Shown here: positions 2,464-61,013 of the stretch, one piece after another
Layout: each line of letters begins with the position of its first letter
Numbering within the stretch: the first letter of the stretch is position 1
Source: Methylobacterium sp. 17Sr1-1
Lineage (GTDB): Bacteria; Pseudomonadota; Alphaproteobacteria; Rhizobiales; Beijerinckiaceae
DNA: 64,000 nt
Direction of reading: 5' to 3'
Assembly (NCBI RefSeq): GCF_003173775.1
Contig: NZ_CP029552.1
Location: 3,014,001 to 3,078,000, forward strand
Notes under the pieces: generated by a model
What the model saw: only the letters and a program-made list of their open reading frames with translations
What the model was told of the DNA's origin: nothing
Databases searched by the model: none
Made by a program: the position numbers and the translations under genes

Positions 2464-2540
2464 GCTACGCTCCGCCCCGGCGTTGTCCATAGTCCGCTTG
2501 TGCGGGAACGCCCGGGGAGGCCGCGGGGTCCCGTCGCCCG

Positions 2541-2666
2541 CGTCGCGGAGCGGTGCAAGACGGTCGCGGAGCGATGAAAGTCGGTCGCGGAGCGATGAAA
2601 GTCGGTCGCGGAGCGGTGAAAGTCGGTCGCGGAGCGGTGAAAGACGGTCGCGGGGCGGTGGACGAC
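2541..2666. repeat. Six tandem copies of a 21-bp minisatellite unit
   Basis: Six head-to-tail units of exactly 21 bases (2541, 2562, 2583, 2604, 2625 and 2646 onward), based on GGTCGCGGAGCGRTGAAAGWC-like repeats. Units 2-5 are nearly identical; the first and last have diverged. It sits between divergent yqgE and the peroxiredoxin gene, ending 85 bases before the peroxiredoxin start, so it may overlap their promoter region. There are no spacers, so it is not CRISPR. The unit is a multiple of three and several frames stay open through it, but no credible gene covers it. Confidence 0.95.
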
Positions 2667-3234: not shown

Positions 3235-3308
3235 GGGGGGCGGCCCGGGTTTCATCCCGACGGGCTGTCCCAGTCGAACCCTTTCGGGTCAAACCCTTTG
3301 AAGTTCAG

Positions 3309-3475
3309 GCGCGGGATCCCCTCTCCCGTGTGGGAGAGGGGTAGGGGTGAGGGTGATACGCTTCAGGATAGATCTGAACCGTCATGCTGCCAGCACCACG
3401 CTCAGCGCCTTGAGCGGAAGCGCGCCACCCTCACCCCCGGCCCCTCTCCCGCACGGGAGAGGGGGGACCCGCGCT
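3309..3475. repeat. Family-1 palindromic element, copy A
   Basis: About 167 bases. Each arm is itself a hairpin (CCCTCTCCC with GGGAGAGGG around a GTGT or GCAC turn), and the two arms are inverted copies of one another around a core of about 90 bases. Copies occur at 7321, 50849 and 60837. The core of copy A, with CTGCCAGCACCACGCTCAG, is in the reverse orientation relative to copy D, showing that the element has moved or inverted as a unit. No T-run follows, so it is not a simple terminator. The rest of the 552-base gap (3235-3786) holds no supportable gene, only a ribosome-binding site (GGGAGG) before the next gene. Confidence 0.9.
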
Positions 3476-7320: not shown

Positions 7321-7491
7321 CCTCCCCTCTCCCGTGTGGGAGAGGGGCCGGGGGTGAGGGTGACACGCTGCAGTGTAGTGCATTGAGCATGGTGCTGGCA
7401 GCGGATTGGTTCAGTCTTCTTGCTGCACCGTCTCCACCCTCACCCCTACCCCTCTCCCAAACGGGAGAGGGGATCCCGCGCTTCTTCCGGA
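7321..7491. repeat. Family-1 palindromic element, copy B
   Basis: Same architecture as the copy at 3309: hairpin arm (7322-7347), core including GGTGCTGGCAGCGGA, and an inverted hairpin arm ending GGATCCCGCGC near 7491. It lies between the dehydrogenase and TRAP binding-protein genes. It could act as a processing or attenuation hairpin inside the operon, but no T-run is present. Confidence 0.9.
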
Positions 7492-49038: not shown

Positions 49039-50283
49039 ATGCCCCCGCTCCGCATCGCCGTCCTCGTCAAGGGCTACCCGCGCCTGTCCGAGACCTTCAT
49101 CGCCCAGGAGTTCCTGGGGCTCGAGGCGCGGGGCCTCGACCTCGCGATCTGGTCGCTGCGCCAACCGCATGACGGCGCGGTGCACCCGATGCACCGGCAG
49201 ATCCGCGCCCCCGTCACCTACCTGCCGGAATACCTCTACCAGGCGCCGCTCCGGGTGCTACGCGGGGCCCTCTCCGCCCTGCGCCGGCCGGGCCTCCTGC
49301 CGCTCATCCGCCTCGCCTGGCGCGACCTCGCCCGCGACCGCACGCCCAATCGCGGCCGGCGCCTCGGCCAGGCCCTGGTGCTCGCCCGCGAGCTGCCGGC
49401 GGAGATCGGCCACATCCACGTCCATTACCTGCACACCCCGGCCTCGGTAGCGCGCTACGCCGCCCTGCTGACCGGGCGGAGCTGGAGCGCCTCGGCGCAT
49501 GCCAAGGACATCTGGACCACGCCGGACTGGGAGCTGGCCGAGAAGCTCACCGACGCGCGGCTCGCCTTCGCGGTCACCTGCACGGCAGCGGGCGCGGCGC
49601 GCCTGCGCGAGGTCGCCGGCGATCCGACGCGGGTCGCGCTCGTCTATCACGGCCTCGACCTGTCGCGGTTTCCCGCCCCCCCGGAATCCCGCCCGGCCCG
49701 GGACGGGTCGGACCCGGCCGATCCCTTGAGAATCGTCACCGTCGGCCGGGCGGTGGCGAAGAAGGGCTTCGACGACCTCCTCGACGCCCTCGCCGCCCTT
49801 CCCCCCGACCTGCACTGGCGCCTCGCCCATGTCGGCGGCGGCGAGGCGCTGGGGTCGCTGCGCGCGAAGGCCGCGGCTTTGGGCCTGTCGCAGAAGGTGA
49901 TGTTTCTCGGCGCGAAGCCCCAGCCCGAGGTGGTGGCGCTCCTGCGCGAGGCCGACCTGTTCGTGCTGCCGGCCAAGCGCGCCCCGTCGGGCGACCGCGA
50001 CGGGCTGCCCAACGTGATCATGGAGGCGGCCTCTCAGGGCCTGGCCGTCGTCGCCACCGACTTCGCCGGCATCCCGGAATTTCTGCGCGATGGCATCGAG
50101 GGCCGGCTGGTGCCGCCGGGGGATTGGGGGGCGCTCTCGAACGCCGTCAACCTGCTCGCCCGCGATCCCGCCGAACGGGCCCGCCTGGCGGCGGCGGCCC
50201 TCACCCGGCTGCGGGCGGAGTTCGGCGCCGAGGCCGGGTTCGAGACCGTGGCGCGCCTGCTCCGGAATGCTGCCGGGCGATGA
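49039..50283 (+). CDS. Glycosyltransferase family 4
   Basis: GT-B transferase of 414 residues. The start, RIAVLVKGYPRLSETFIAQEFLGLEARG, is typical of colanic-acid-type GT4 enzymes. IVTVGRAVAKKGFDDLLDAL begins the C-terminal domain, and FVLPAKRAPSGDRDGLPNVIMEAASQG contains the donor-binding E-x7-E-like motif, followed by GIPEFLRDGIEGRLVPPGD. It probably adds a sugar in a polysaccharide or glycolipid pathway. Its stop overlaps the next gene start (ATGA), so the two are translationally coupled. Confidence 0.93.
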   Translation: MPPLRIAVLVKGYPRLSETFIAQEFLGLEARGLDLAIWSLRQPHDGAVHPMHRQIRAPVTYLPEYLYQAPLRVLRGALSALRRPGLLPLIRLAWRDLARDRTPNRGRRLGQALVLARELPAEIGHIHVHYLHTPASVARYAALLTGRSWSASAHAKDIWTTPDWELAEKLTDARLAFAVTCTAAGAARLREVAGDPTRVALVYHGLDLSRFPAPPESRPARDGSDPADPLRIVTVGRAVAKKGFDDLLDALAALPPDLHWRLAHVGGGEALGSLRAKAAALGLSQKVMFLGAKPQPEVVALLREADLFVLPAKRAPSGDRDGLPNVIMEAASQGLAVVATDFAGIPEFLRDGIEGRLVPPGDWGALSNAVNLLARDPAERARLAAAALTRLRAEFGAEAGFETVARLLRNAAGR

Positions 50284-51638
50284 GCCGGGTCGCCTTCTAC
50301 GCGCCCCTCAAGGCCCCCGGCCACCCGGTCCCGTCCGGCGAGCGCACGATGGCGCGGCTGCTGCTGCGGGCGCTGGCCGTCGCCGGGTTCGCCCCGGAGG
50401 TCGCCAGTTGCTTGCGCACCCGCGATCCCGACGGGTCGCGGCATCCGGGCTTGCGCGCCGCGTCGCTGGCGGAGGCCGAGCGCCTGATTACGGCGTACCG
50501 AGCCGATCCGCCGGCCCTGTGGTTCACCTACCACGTCTACTACAAGGCGCCGGACTGGATCGGCCCGGTCGTGTCGCGGGCCCTCGGAATCCCGTACGTG
50601 GTGGCGGAGGGCTCGCGGGCGCCCCGGCGCGCGTCCGGCCCGCACGCCCTCGGCCATGCCGGGGCCGAGGTTGCCCTCGACGCGGCGGACCTGATCCTCG
50701 TCATGAACCGTCGCGACCGGCCGGCTTTGGAGGCGGCGCGGCCGGGGGCCCAAGTGCTCGCCGACCTGCCGCCGTTCCTCGATCCGGCGGAGTGGCCGCT
50801 GTCTACCGGGGCTCGGGGTCTGTCTGGACACGACCCGAGGCGAGATTGGCGCGGGATCCCCTCTCCCGTGTGGGAGAGGGGTGGGGGCGATCGGAGATCG
50901 CGCGAGGGTGGCGCGCTTCCGAGTAAGGCTCGAACTGTCGTGCTGGCAACGGAACGTTCGGTGCCACTTGCGGCACCGTCTCCACCCTCGCGCGATCTTC
51001 GATCGCCCCTACCCCTCTCCCACACGGGAGAGGGGATCCCGCGGCTCTCGAGTATCCGGGCAGACCATCGCATCGCGACGCCGCCCCGCCCTCTGCGCCT
51101 CCTCACTGTCGCGATGATGCGGGAAGGCGACAAGCTCGCCTCCTACCGCCTGCTGGCCGAGGCCCTGGGCCAGATCGGCGACTATGCCTGGAGCCTCGAC
51201 GTCGCCGGGGACGGCCCGGCCGCGGCCGAGGTGTCGGCCCTGCTCGCGCCCTTCGGCGACCGGGTGCGCCGCCACGGCGCCGTCGACGCCACCGGCCTCT
51301 CGGCCCTCTACGGCGCCGCCGACCTCCTGGTCTGGCCGGCCGTCAACGAGGCCTACGGCATGGCGCTGCTGGAAGCGCAGGCCCATGGCTGCCCGGTGGT
51401 GGCCGGCGGCTACGGCGGCGTGGCGGACGTGGTCCAGGACGGCGTGACCGGCCGGGTGACGCCGCCGGGCGACCCTGCTGCGCTCGCCGCCGCGATCCGC
51501 GACCTCGCCGCGGCACCGGGCCGCCTCGCGGCGATGCGGACGGCCGCGCTGGCCTTCGCCCGCGCGGAGCGGAGCCTCGACGGGGCGGCGTCCCGCCTGC
51601 GCGCGGCGCTCGCCCCGCTCCTGGGGGAGCGCGCATGA
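50280..51638 (+). CDS. Glycosyltransferase family 4 carrying an in-frame palindromic insert
   Basis: Transferase of 452 residues. The N-terminal domain (1-188) is normal (RVAFYAPLKAPGHPVPSGERTMARLLLRAL; FTYHVYYKAPDWIGP). Residues about 190-254 are encoded by a complete family-1 palindromic element and read GIPSPVWERGGGDRRS and so on, a low-complexity peptide unlike any enzyme. The C-terminal domain resumes with RLLTVAMMREGDKLASYRLL and has NEAYGMALLEAQAHGCPVV and GVADVVQDGVTGRVTPPGD. The reading frame is kept throughout. Without the insert the length would be about 387 residues, normal for the family. The insert lies at the linker between the two domains, so activity may survive. The gene is coupled by ATGA overlaps on both sides. 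Confidence 0.9.
   Translation: MSRVAFYAPLKAPGHPVPSGERTMARLLLRALAVAGFAPEVASCLRTRDPDGSRHPGLRAASLAEAERLITAYRADPPALWFTYHVYYKAPDWIGPVVSRALGIPYVVAEGSRAPRRASGPHALGHAGAEVALDAADLILVMNRRDRPALEAARPGAQVLADLPPFLDPAEWPLSTGARGLSGHDPRRDWRGIPSPVWERGGGDRRSREGGALPSKARTVVLATERSVPLAAPSPPSRDLRSPLPLSHTGEGIPRLSSIRADHRIATPPRPLRLLTVAMMREGDKLASYRLLAEALGQIGDYAWSLDVAGDGPAAAEVSALLAPFGDRVRRHGAVDATGLSALYGAADLLVWPAVNEAYGMALLEAQAHGCPVVAGGYGGVADVVQDGVTGRVTPPGDPAALAAAIRDLAAAPGRLAAMRTAALAFARAERSLDGAASRLRAALAPLLGERA
50849..51043. repeat. Family-1 palindromic element, copy C, inside a coding gene
   Basis: About 195 bases, a multiple of three. Outer arms GCGCGGGATCCCCTCTCCC and its complement, inner hairpins with GTGT and ACAC turns, and an added inverted stretch (GATCGGAGATCGCGCG with its counterpart) next to each arm. 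The core shares GTGCTGGCAACGGAACG with copies B and D and GTGGCGCGCTTCCG with the complement of copy A. It adds no stop codon in the frame of the host gene. Confidence 0.93.
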
Positions 51639-53650
51639 GCCGGATCCTGATCGCCGTCACCCACCTTCTCGGCGCCGGCCATCTCACCCGGGCGGCGGCC
51701 CTGGCCCGGGCCTTCGCGGGCGCGGGCCACGCCGTGACGCTCGTCTCCGGCGGCCTCCCGGCGGCCCTGCCCCGCCTCGACGGCATCCGCCTGGTGCAGC
51801 TGCCGCCGGTGCGGATCACCGGCACCGCCTTCACGGCGCTCCTCGACCCGGAGGGCGCGCCCGTGACGGCGGAGCGTCTGGCGGCCCGGAGCCATGCCCT
51901 GCGCGCCGCTTTCGCGGAGGCGACCCCGGACGCGGTGATCACCGAGCTCTATCCCTTCGGCCGCCGGGTCCTCGCGCCGGAATTCGAGGCGCTGGCCGAG
52001 GCCGTGCGGGGGGCCGCAGCACGCCCGCTGCTCCTCGCCTCGATCCGCGACATCCTCGCGACCCCGAGCCGCCCGGAGCGGATCGCCGCGACCCACGCCC
52101 GCCTTCACTCCTACGACGCCGTGCTGGTGCACGGCGATCCCGCCTTCCTGCCCCTCGACGCCTCATGGCCGGTCGACGAGGCGGTGGCGCGGCGCCTGCG
52201 CTACACCGGCTACGTCGACGAGAGCGACGCGGCGCTGGCGCCGGATGGTCCCCGCGCCGGGATCGTGGTTTCGGGCGGGTCAAGCGCCGCGGGCCTGCCG
52301 TTGCAGGAGGCCGCGGTCGCGGCGGCTTCCCTCACCCCCGGCCTCTCCTGGCGCATCCTCGTCGGCCGCGCCGTGCCGGAGCCCGCCTTCGCGGCCCTCG
52401 CGGCGGCGGCGCCCGGAAACGTGGTCGTCGAGCGAGCGCGGCCGGACTTTCGCGCACTCCTCGCCCGGGCCGCGCTCTCGGTGAGCCAGGCCGGCTACAA
52501 CACGGTGCTCGATCTCCTGCACGGCGGCTGCCCGGCCCTGCTGGTGCCGTTCGAGGCCGGCCACGAGACCGAGCAGCGCCTGCGCGCCGAGACGCTGGCC
52601 GCCCACGGCCTCGCCCGGGTGCTGCCGGAGAGCGACCTCACGGCCGAACGCCTCGCGGCAGCGGTCCTGGCCGCCCCGCCGCCGGGGATCGGGCACGCCA
52701 TCGCGCGGGACGGGGCGCGGCGGAGCGTAGCGATCGTGGAGGCGATGCTGGCGGATGCCAGCCTCAATCGTGACGAAGTACGGCACTTCCCCTCCCCAGG
52801 CGATCTCGGGCTTGGATCTCGGGCAAGCCCGAGATCGCCTGGGGAGGGGAAGGCGGTTTACCTTGACGCTGCCGTCGATTTCACACCCCTCACCGACGCC
52901 CTCGCACGCGCCGCGGATGCAGGCCGCACCACCATCCTCTGGTGGCGCGACGACGACGCGGTCGCCCACACCCCTGCCCTCGACCGCCTGCTCGCCCTCG
53001 CCGTCCGGACCGGCTGGCCGGTGGCGCTCGCCGCGATTCCTGCCCGGGCCGAGCCGTCGCTGGCCGCACGCGTCGCCGACGAGGCGGGGATTGATCTCCT
53101 CGTCCACGGCCTCGCCCATACCAACCACGCGCCGCTCGACAGCAAGAGGGCGGAGTTCGGCTCGCACCGGCCACTGGCTGCATTGCAGGCCGACGCCGCA
53201 AAAGCCCTGGCCCTCGCGAAGGCCCGCCTCGGCCCCCGCCTGCTGCCGGTGCTGGTGCCGCCCTGGAACCGCCTCGCCCCCGACCTGCCCGCGACTCTCC
53301 CGGCCCTCGGCTACCAGGGCGTCTCGGCGGCCCATTCCCTGCGCCCGGTCGCAGGCCTCGCCCAGGCCCACGCGGCGATCGACCCGGTCGCCTGGCGCGC
53401 CGGCGGCGGGCTCGCCGATCCGGGTGGCGTCGTCGCCCGGGCCGCCCGGGCGGTGGCGGAGGGCGGCCCGGTCGGGCTCCTCACCCACCACCTCGTGCAG
53501 GACGCGGCGACCTGGGCGTTCTGCGAGCGCCTGCTCGACCACCTCGCCGCCCATGCGGCGAAAGATCCGGCCTCGAGAATATCGCGCGCCGCCGCTTTGT
53601 TTGCGCCCACGGCGTCGCCCGTGTCACAAACGGACCCTATCTTCCCGTGA
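51635..53650 (+). CDS. Fusion: MurG-like glycosyltransferase + polysaccharide deacetylase-like domain
   Basis: Protein of 671 residues. Residues 1 to about 378 are a GT28-like transferase (ILIAVTHLLGAGHLTRAAAL; SVSQAGYNTVLDLLHGGCPALLVPFEAGHETEQ). Residues 384-406 come from a perfect palindrome. Residues about 410-671 resemble a polysaccharide deacetylase: TTILWWRDDDAVAHTP holds an Asp-Asp metal and catalytic pair, LLVHGLAHTNHAP the His motif, LVPPWNRLAPDL, and GLLTHHLV near the end. The two halves may once have been separate genes. Its ATG overlaps the preceding stop. A role in making and deacetylating a surface glycan is inferred. Confidence 0.88.
   Translation: MSRILIAVTHLLGAGHLTRAAALARAFAGAGHAVTLVSGGLPAALPRLDGIRLVQLPPVRITGTAFTALLDPEGAPVTAERLAARSHALRAAFAEATPDAVITELYPFGRRVLAPEFEALAEAVRGAAARPLLLASIRDILATPSRPERIAATHARLHSYDAVLVHGDPAFLPLDASWPVDEAVARRLRYTGYVDESDAALAPDGPRAGIVVSGGSSAAGLPLQEAAVAAASLTPGLSWRILVGRAVPEPAFAALAAAAPGNVVVERARPDFRALLARAALSVSQAGYNTVLDLLHGGCPALLVPFEAGHETEQRLRAETLAAHGLARVLPESDLTAERLAAAVLAAPPPGIGHAIARDGARRSVAIVEAMLADASLNRDEVRHFPSPGDLGLGSRASPRSPGEGKAVYLDAAVDFTPLTDALARAADAGRTTILWWRDDDAVAHTPALDRLLALAVRTGWPVALAAIPARAEPSLAARVADEAGIDLLVHGLAHTNHAPLDSKRAEFGSHRPLAALQADAAKALALAKARLGPRLLPVLVPPWNRLAPDLPATLPALGYQGVSAAHSLRPVAGLAQAHAAIDPVAWRAGGGLADPGGVVARAARAVAEGGPVGLLTHHLVQDAATWAFCERLLDHLAAHAAKDPASRISRAAALFAPTASPVSQTDPIFP
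52786..52852. repeat. Perfect 28-bp palindrome at a domain junction within a gene
   Basis: Arms 52786-52813 and 52825-52852 are exact complements (28 of 28), with an 11-base loop. The arm begins CTTCCCCTCCCCAGGCGATC. It lies exactly between the transferase and deacetylase domains of the host protein and is translated as a Pro/Gly/Ser-rich linker. It has no sequence relation to the family-1 element apart from pyrimidine-rich arms. Confidence 0.95.
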
Positions 53651-60836: not shown

Positions 60837-61013
60837 GCGCGGGATCCCCTCTCCCGTGTGGGAGAGGGGTAGGGGCGATCGAAGATCGCGCGAGGGTGAC
60901 ACGTTTAAGGATTAGCTACTGAGCGTGGTGCTGGCAGCGGAACGCTGAGCGCTTCACGCGGCACCGTAGCACCCTCACCCCCGGCCCCTCTCCCACACGG
61001 GAGAGGGGAGAGG
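60837..61013. repeat. Family-1 palindromic element, copy D
   Basis: Starts GCGCGGGATCCCC, followed by the hairpin arm with GTGT turn, a GATCGAAGATCGCGCG stretch on the left only, a core with GTGGTGCTGGCAGCGGAACG, and the inverted arm (CCCCTCTCCCACACGGGAGAGG). It lies in the 333-base gap (60720-61052) between convergent ABC operons. The rest of the gap holds nothing recognisable. No T-run is present. Confidence 0.9.

Follow-up and report, generated by a model that had tools for sequence, protein, structure and literature searches.

The gene of a glycosyltransferase in Methylobacterium sp. 17Sr1-1 contains, in frame and at the linker between the two domains of the enzyme, a palindromic repeat of about 250 bp. 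Most orthologues in the genus have an empty linker at this site, similar palindromes recur in the linkers of further proteins, and a relative carries a transposon with matching ends. We consider it quite probable that the repeat is a MITE which an IS4-family transposase brought to this site, and that it is translated, as predicted, into a disordered stretch of about 88 residues that the enzyme tolerates. Repeats of this kind would then likely supply proteins with new, flexible sequence time and again. This role had already been proposed in an initial annotation of the locus and is now better founded, with the glycosyltransferase being one of several host genes.

A palindrome between two domains

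The window, that is the whole stretch of 64,000 nucleotides analysed here, corresponds to bases 3014001-3078000 of a 6.54-Mb one-contig genome. Within it, a reading frame runs free of stops from the ATG at 50280 to the stop codon at 51636-51638. The Pfam families Glyco_trans_1_4 and Glycos_transf_1 match the C-terminal half of its product, and the closest PDB fold matches are GT-B enzymes, for example GlgM (6tvp) and MshA (3c48); we take the enzyme to be of the GT-B fold and of family 4. Judged by this protein, the closest named relatives are Methylobacterium species such as M. tarhaniae, M. frigidaeris and M. aquaticum. The neighbouring open frames (49039-50283 and 51635-53650) overlap the gene by four bases each in an operon-like manner. 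The protein of the gene caller for this locus starts at Met142 and comprises 311 residues including the whole insert; this start is likely mis-called, since the orthologues match from residue 1-4 on.

The palindromic core reported in the initial annotation is indeed present (Table 1). When positions 50850-51043 are aligned to their reverse complement, 82.6% of 201 columns agree, and the predicted RNA fold of the palindrome reaches -178.4 kcal/mol compared to a mean of -89.0 for shuffled sequences (z -19.2, none of 200 shuffles as good). This is the most stable fold per base (-0.92) among 47 two-hairpin copies, whose median lies at -0.73 kcal/mol per nt. The hairpin CCCCTCTCCC-nnnn-GGGAGAGGGG is present in each arm; longer copies have in addition a short GATCG-A-GATC-like module. 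We refer to this palindrome as type A; this label as well as type B and MITE-like were coined in the present analysis.

The location in frame, free of stops and between two domains also stood up, but the size had to be revised: instead of about 65 codons or 195 bp the insert amounts to about 88 codons, given a linker of 297 nt versus 33 nt in empty orthologues and outer repeats that bound 250 bp. Four of the six reading frames are open in this copy, compared to a mean of 1.7 over the 47 two-hairpin copies. An AlphaFold2 model was calculated from 46 aligned sequences, namely the window protein together with 45 relatives out of 70 listed. In this model, residues 194-260 stay below a pLDDT of 50 while the blocks of both domains mostly reach 94-99. 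The insert is thus predicted to be a disordered stretch between two confident domains.

Table 1 Features of the window and their positions
Feature	Position	Strand	Remarks
Glycosyltransferase gene, GT-B (family 4 type, presumably), with insert	50280..51638	+	452 aa; Pfam, PDB fold matches, orthologues
Inter-domain linker	50796..51092	+	297 nt, net +264 nt relative to most empty orthologues
Full element including outer inverted repeats	50817..51066	.	250 bp; 9/11 matches to GGGCTGTCCGG each side
Left outer inverted repeat	50817..50827	+	GGTCTGTCTGG
Palindromic core, type A	50849..51043	.	195 bp; two 24-bp hairpins in long inverted arms, asymmetric core
Right outer inverted repeat	51056..51066	-	CCGGGCAGACC as read on the + strand
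Further element copy	60837..61009	+	
Further element copy	7323..7480	+	
Further element copy	3307..3474	-	
Weak partial match	2520..2554	-	35 bp, 77%, E 0.04, may be chance

Empty and occupied linkers among the orthologues

A search of 111 genomes of the genus yielded 19 orthologues, our own included; the best matches in the other 92 genomes are weaker paralogues (E 1e-18 or worse) and were excluded from the set. The initial annotation had named absence of the insert in relatives as a check, and 16 of the 19 linkers are indeed empty; by this comparison the insert is the derived state. Where empty, the linker measures 33 nt in 13 of the 15 orthologues listed and 36 and 39 nt in the remaining two. 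All 19 genes are open through the linker. The three occupied ones belong to Methylobacterium sp. 17Sr1-1 itself (G000), to G005, and to G071, which is Methylobacterium sp. SyP6R by protein name. Their inserts are strong palindromes that add a net 264, 261 and 270 nt, respectively, each a multiple of three. The insert of G005 is of type A as in G000, that of G071 is of type B and has other arms.

How often was this linker reached? In a tree built from 3.4 kb at this locus, G005 and G071 are sisters (100/99) and G000 stands beside two uninterrupted species; a grouping of the three carriers is rejected (AU p 0.0004), with two changes. One could also imagine a single old insertion in the ancestor of seven species, four of which have since lost or overwritten it. 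When restricted to 900 bp at the site, the test does not reject a grouping of the three carriers (AU p 0.226), and a 30-bp left-end pattern, built from G000 and G071 and searched with up to three mismatches, occurs in the 111 genomes at those two glycosyltransferase loci only. The left-end similarity score of this pair, 17, is however barely above the best value of 15 among 132 flanks of other G000 copies, and the longer tree speaks against a common insert. We favour two separate arrivals in the glycosyltransferase gene and give the single old insertion somewhat less than an even chance.

Does the interrupted gene still encode an enzyme under selection? Excluding the linker, dN/dS of the two domains (Nei-Gojobori) is 0.25 for G005-G071, both of which bear the insert, and 0.26 for G000-G011, compared to 0.23-0.35 for seven insert-free pairs. 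As far as codon comparisons can tell, the domains flanking the insert remain under purifying selection with no sign of relaxation. The stable stem of the copy could nevertheless hinder translation or invite RNase III, which we count against our preferred explanation. In the extreme, the insert would split or silence the gene by an RNase III cut or a ribosome stop at the stem, with no full-length enzyme being made and decay to follow. The stem itself, with -178 kcal/mol and the strongest fold per base of 47 copies, would suit this idea, as would the gene-caller protein that begins at Met142 without most of the N-domain and a frame-broken CobG-like gene in G005 (see below). Yet both domains evolve at ratios near 0.25 like uninterrupted pairs, all three inserts are in frame, Met142 is merely an in-frame start choice in a gene whose orthologues match from its first residues, and the orthologue of G071 is annotated at its full length of 454 aa. 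Silencing hence appears unlikely, and a translated and tolerated insert is the reading that we pursue.

Copies across the genome and the genus

The three further copies that the initial annotation had seen in the window were recovered (Table 1), and they are part of a large population. Allowing up to three mismatches, the hairpin is found 186 times in the own genome compared to seven times for a reversed control, and a search with the glycosyltransferase element identified at least 40 distinct places (40 of 174 candidates scored). With up to one mismatch the hairpin occurs in 74 of the 111 genus genomes, with 0 to 220 matches per genome. Against Rfam, ten matches with E of 1 or lower were obtained, none of which reached the gathering score.

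For 67 copies the surroundings were inspected; 40 of these copies stem from the element search and 27 from the hairpin matches listed. A copy was called in-gene when a codon-use score trained on the window indicated coding-like sequence on both sides and one long open frame. Three of the 67 lie in frame in genes, namely those for the glycosyltransferase, a CobG-like protein and a DUF3306 protein; the other 64 were not called in-gene, and frame-breaking insertions may be among them. Codon use identified the glycosyltransferase and CobG-like copies. The DUF3306 copy is followed by only about 35 codons, which scored as non-coding, and was recognised via a database protein in which a similar insert precedes the C-terminal motif that both share. 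One more copy (L177) scored as in-gene but was not counted, as its short frame lies opposite two better-scoring genes. Among 18 further candidate places with long open frames in relatives, none had coding-like sequence on both sides, which also counts against our explanation; three of these regions have no hairpin by the criterion used.

A reading frame common to all inserts was considered and rejected. Roughly one in ten insertions into genes would keep the frame intact, considering that a mean of 1.7 of six frames is open and that the chance of a length divisible by three is one in three. Searches of protein databases with exact words and a limited length window returned the own protein and P0002 for the type A peptide, and the query itself and P0004 for the type B peptide.

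Outer ends and a transposon to match

Some copies have outer repeats related to GGGCTGTCCGG, for the most part at a distance of 31-43 bases from the hairpins on their outer side. At least nine of 11 matches are reached by 24% of the 94 flanks of the 47 two-hairpin copies versus 2.5% of shuffled flanks, a test that is partly circular, as 24 copies of the same set had served to define the motif by eye. When the repeat is searched in a relaxed form, the own genome has 84 forward and 80 reverse matches, compared to 42 and 49 in the reversed control, and the weaker matches are therefore largely due to chance. Palindromes of type A and type B, and others with a third interior, are found between pairs of this repeat.

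An exact pair of outer repeats 795 bp apart in the own genome encloses what is left of an IS4-family transposase, its C-terminal part (match to NF033592 with E 1.2e-8, below the cut-off). Used as query, this remnant has matches in four of the 111 genomes. G005 contains five copies of a 402-aa transposase frame with 91-92% identity, bounded by perfect copies of GGGCTGTCCGGGGAA about 1.28 kb apart; the ends read CAGGGCTGTCCGGGGAA. The enzyme belongs to the IS4 family (NF033592 with 214 bits at a cut-off of 115; Pfam DDE_Tnp_1 and DUF4372). Three of the five transposons show a perfect 9-bp target repeat, with ends that read CA...TG. The other two match at 9/9 across on one side and at 3/9 on the other; they seem recombined, with one side exchanged. 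By eye, all five (L285, L288, L290, L292, L293) are flanked by palindrome sequence.

It is this match between the outer repeats and the ends of an IS4-family transposon that makes MITE-like elements the most likely identity of the palindromic repeats, as judged from sequence. Some observations count against it. A target-site duplication, which the initial annotation had named as a check, was not found at the ends of the glycosyltransferase copy, and these ends agree with the outer-repeat motif at only nine of 11 positions each. In addition, the own genome contains the remnant and no intact copy of the transposon. Among 18 of its small elements, counting the 795-bp pair, a 9-bp repeat is perfect at L276, which is of type B, and matches at 8/9 at L283; these two of 18 compare to seven of 306 mismatched pairs at 8-9/9.

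Other candidates for a parent were discarded. Two outer-repeat pairs 1.7 kb apart hold another IS (DDE_Tnp_1, ends CTACGGCC) that is inserted in a palindrome. A REP driven by a RAYT was rejected as well: Y1_Tnp (PF01797) has no match in the own genome, while the control was positive in five of 14. Concerning the other IS, its two copies (L273 and L274, G000:C1:3725600-3727440 and 2597320-2599240) have the ends CTACGGCCTTGACGGAA and a 467-residue open frame with DDE_Tnp_1. Both copies read are inserted into a type B palindrome at its hairpin loop and are flanked on either side by CCCCGCGGG. A small repeat, CGATACCGGGCAAG...GCCCGGCATCG, was in turn seen inside the hairpin loop of type A copies, near position 1640 of L026 and in the DUF3306 linker of G031 (L195), in one case in frame inside a gene.

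Other host proteins

The second host matches Pfam NIR_SIR_ferr and is a protein that we take to be CobG-like. Its linker could be cut out in 13 genomes (17 loci tried), ten of which match type A or B at E<1e-5, nine of these ten in frame. At this threshold none of 400 random window segments and none of 28 reversed linkers matched; at E<1e-3 nine of the 400 segments did. A full type A palindrome is found in G000 and in the more distant G030, a full type B in G024 and G031. The G000 copy sat in the reference set and was found independently by the genome search with the glycosyltransferase element. Short remnants of about one hairpin are present in G011, G016, G001, G105 and G106, and G005 has a partial match; G004 and G071 match weakly and G051 not at all. 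In the CobG-like gene of G005 (L250) the palindrome-derived insert is out of frame, by decay or an assembly error, which counts against our explanation.

For DUF3306 proteins, the linkers of 14 of 15 clade species reach E<1e-5 in their best match against type A or type B. Type A is the best match in G000, G031, G002, G036 and G109, type B (whose reference is a single sequence, the glycosyltransferase insert of G071) in G001, G004, G005, G011, G024, G071, G104, G105 and G106; the match of G016 is too weak to call. The C-terminal motif follows in frame in 13 of the 15 species. The exceptions, G104, which ends before the motif, and G036, which has a run of N, are again counted against our explanation. 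By eye, the eight loci parsed of 15 more distant DUF3306 loci have no such repeat peptide. On the 3.4-kb tree of the glycosyltransferase locus the palindrome type of the DUF3306 linker changes at least five times (four without G016 and G109), the same as with shuffled labels, and that of the CobG-like linker five times, with a third type assigned by eye. SyP6R provides a fourth host, an acyltransferase in which a type B peptide lies, by eye, between hydrophobic segments.

Could the peptide be a mere by-product of an element that works as RNA or DNA, as a terminator, an RNase III site or a regulator of the cluster? With 64 of the 67 copies read not called in-gene and strong folds of the two-hairpin copies this has some appeal, but the glycosyltransferase gene exists without the element in 16 of 19 orthologues, and the DUF3306 linkers mostly keep the frame while folding more weakly (-0.42 to -0.64 per nt, including sequence outside the element), which makes it very unlikely.

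How mobile palindromes might feed protein linkers

We infer movement of the element, tolerance by the protein and exchange of types from these patterns. A small element with IS4-type ends would be moved in trans by a transposase of the G005 type or a relative, with palindromic sequence as the preferred target. Selection would remove most insertions into genes, as about nine in ten would disrupt the frame or introduce a stop; the rare in-frame ones that hit flexible, tolerant linkers would survive it. The inserted peptide might then drift and shrink, often to a single hairpin, as the CobG-like remnants suggest. Palindrome types with common outer ends would be insertion targets themselves, and an occupied linker could swap its type by re-insertion or recombination. 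A further-reaching idea, possible but rather doubtful, is that certain protein linkers of the clade act as standing docking sites: a palindrome, once settled there, would attract further elements with the same IS4-type ends to its hairpin loops, such that cassettes with different interiors are swapped in frame over the course of speciation. If this were true, one linker would be rewritten again and again by mobile DNA.

In-frame palindromic elements were reportedly made known by Rickettsia, a genus with a reduced intracellular genome in which drift could explain them. Methylobacterium is a plant- and soil-associated genus with a large genome. Here, in-frame palindromes occur in such a large genome and in several conserved proteins, together with close empty orthologues, an apparent replacement of types at one site and a relative whose transposon has matching ends. 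As the same enzyme exists without insert, with type A and with type B, the question whether such repeats feed protein evolution becomes directly testable.

Comparison with known systems

The CGTC/GTAG REPs are palindromic repeats of alphaproteobacteria, some of them intragenic, for which flexible linkers or loops have been suggested (PMC3733652). CGTC REPs have stems of 8-9 bp with A-T in the first and second position and CGTC at one end (PMC3733652). In contrast, the Methylobacterium repeat has a G+C-rich 10-bp stem, CCCCTCTCCC/GGGAGAGGGG, and a 4-base loop (24 copies aligned), with no CGTC tag as a rule; this comparison follows the published description and uses no model, and the stem is flanked by GCGTC in some few copies. 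The name Methylobacterium does not occur in the main text of that paper (PMC3733652).

ERIC, YPAL and Correia are MITEs with reading frames: small, with inverted ends and no gene of their own, and fused in frame to genes (PMC2229807). The glycosyltransferase element is likewise small, has terminal inverted repeats and no own gene; elements of its kind share their ends with the IS4-family transposon of a relative, this copy at only nine of 11 positions. It differs in that target repeats accompany two of 18 small elements and not the copy in question, and in that several interiors occur within the same ends. A MITE from the same genus is MiniMdi3 of Methylobacterium extorquens, which is about 400 bp long, related to ISMdi3 and described with few copies (PMC2680597). 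Our element differs in size.

The initial annotation knew of no such case in this group. For Methylobacterium this stands, as the top-ranked titles of the openly accessible literature offered no description of in-frame palindromic repeats in the genus; more broadly it does not, since in-frame palindromes have been described in other bacteria, alphaproteobacteria included (PMC2229807, PMC3733652).

The parallel to the Rickettsia palindromic elements, drawn from the start, holds at the level of how the repeats work. Those elements are dispersed palindromes of 105-146 bp, some of which lie in frame in genes of conserved proteins, and the product of a gmk gene that carries one was reported to be active (PMC2229807). 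The Methylobacterium repeat is likewise found both between genes and in frame within them. It is longer, with about 250 bp, and belongs to a different genus; the likeness drawn here concerns the mode of working. What sets it apart is that different palindrome types occupy one linker across species, and that a transposon with matching ends is at hand.
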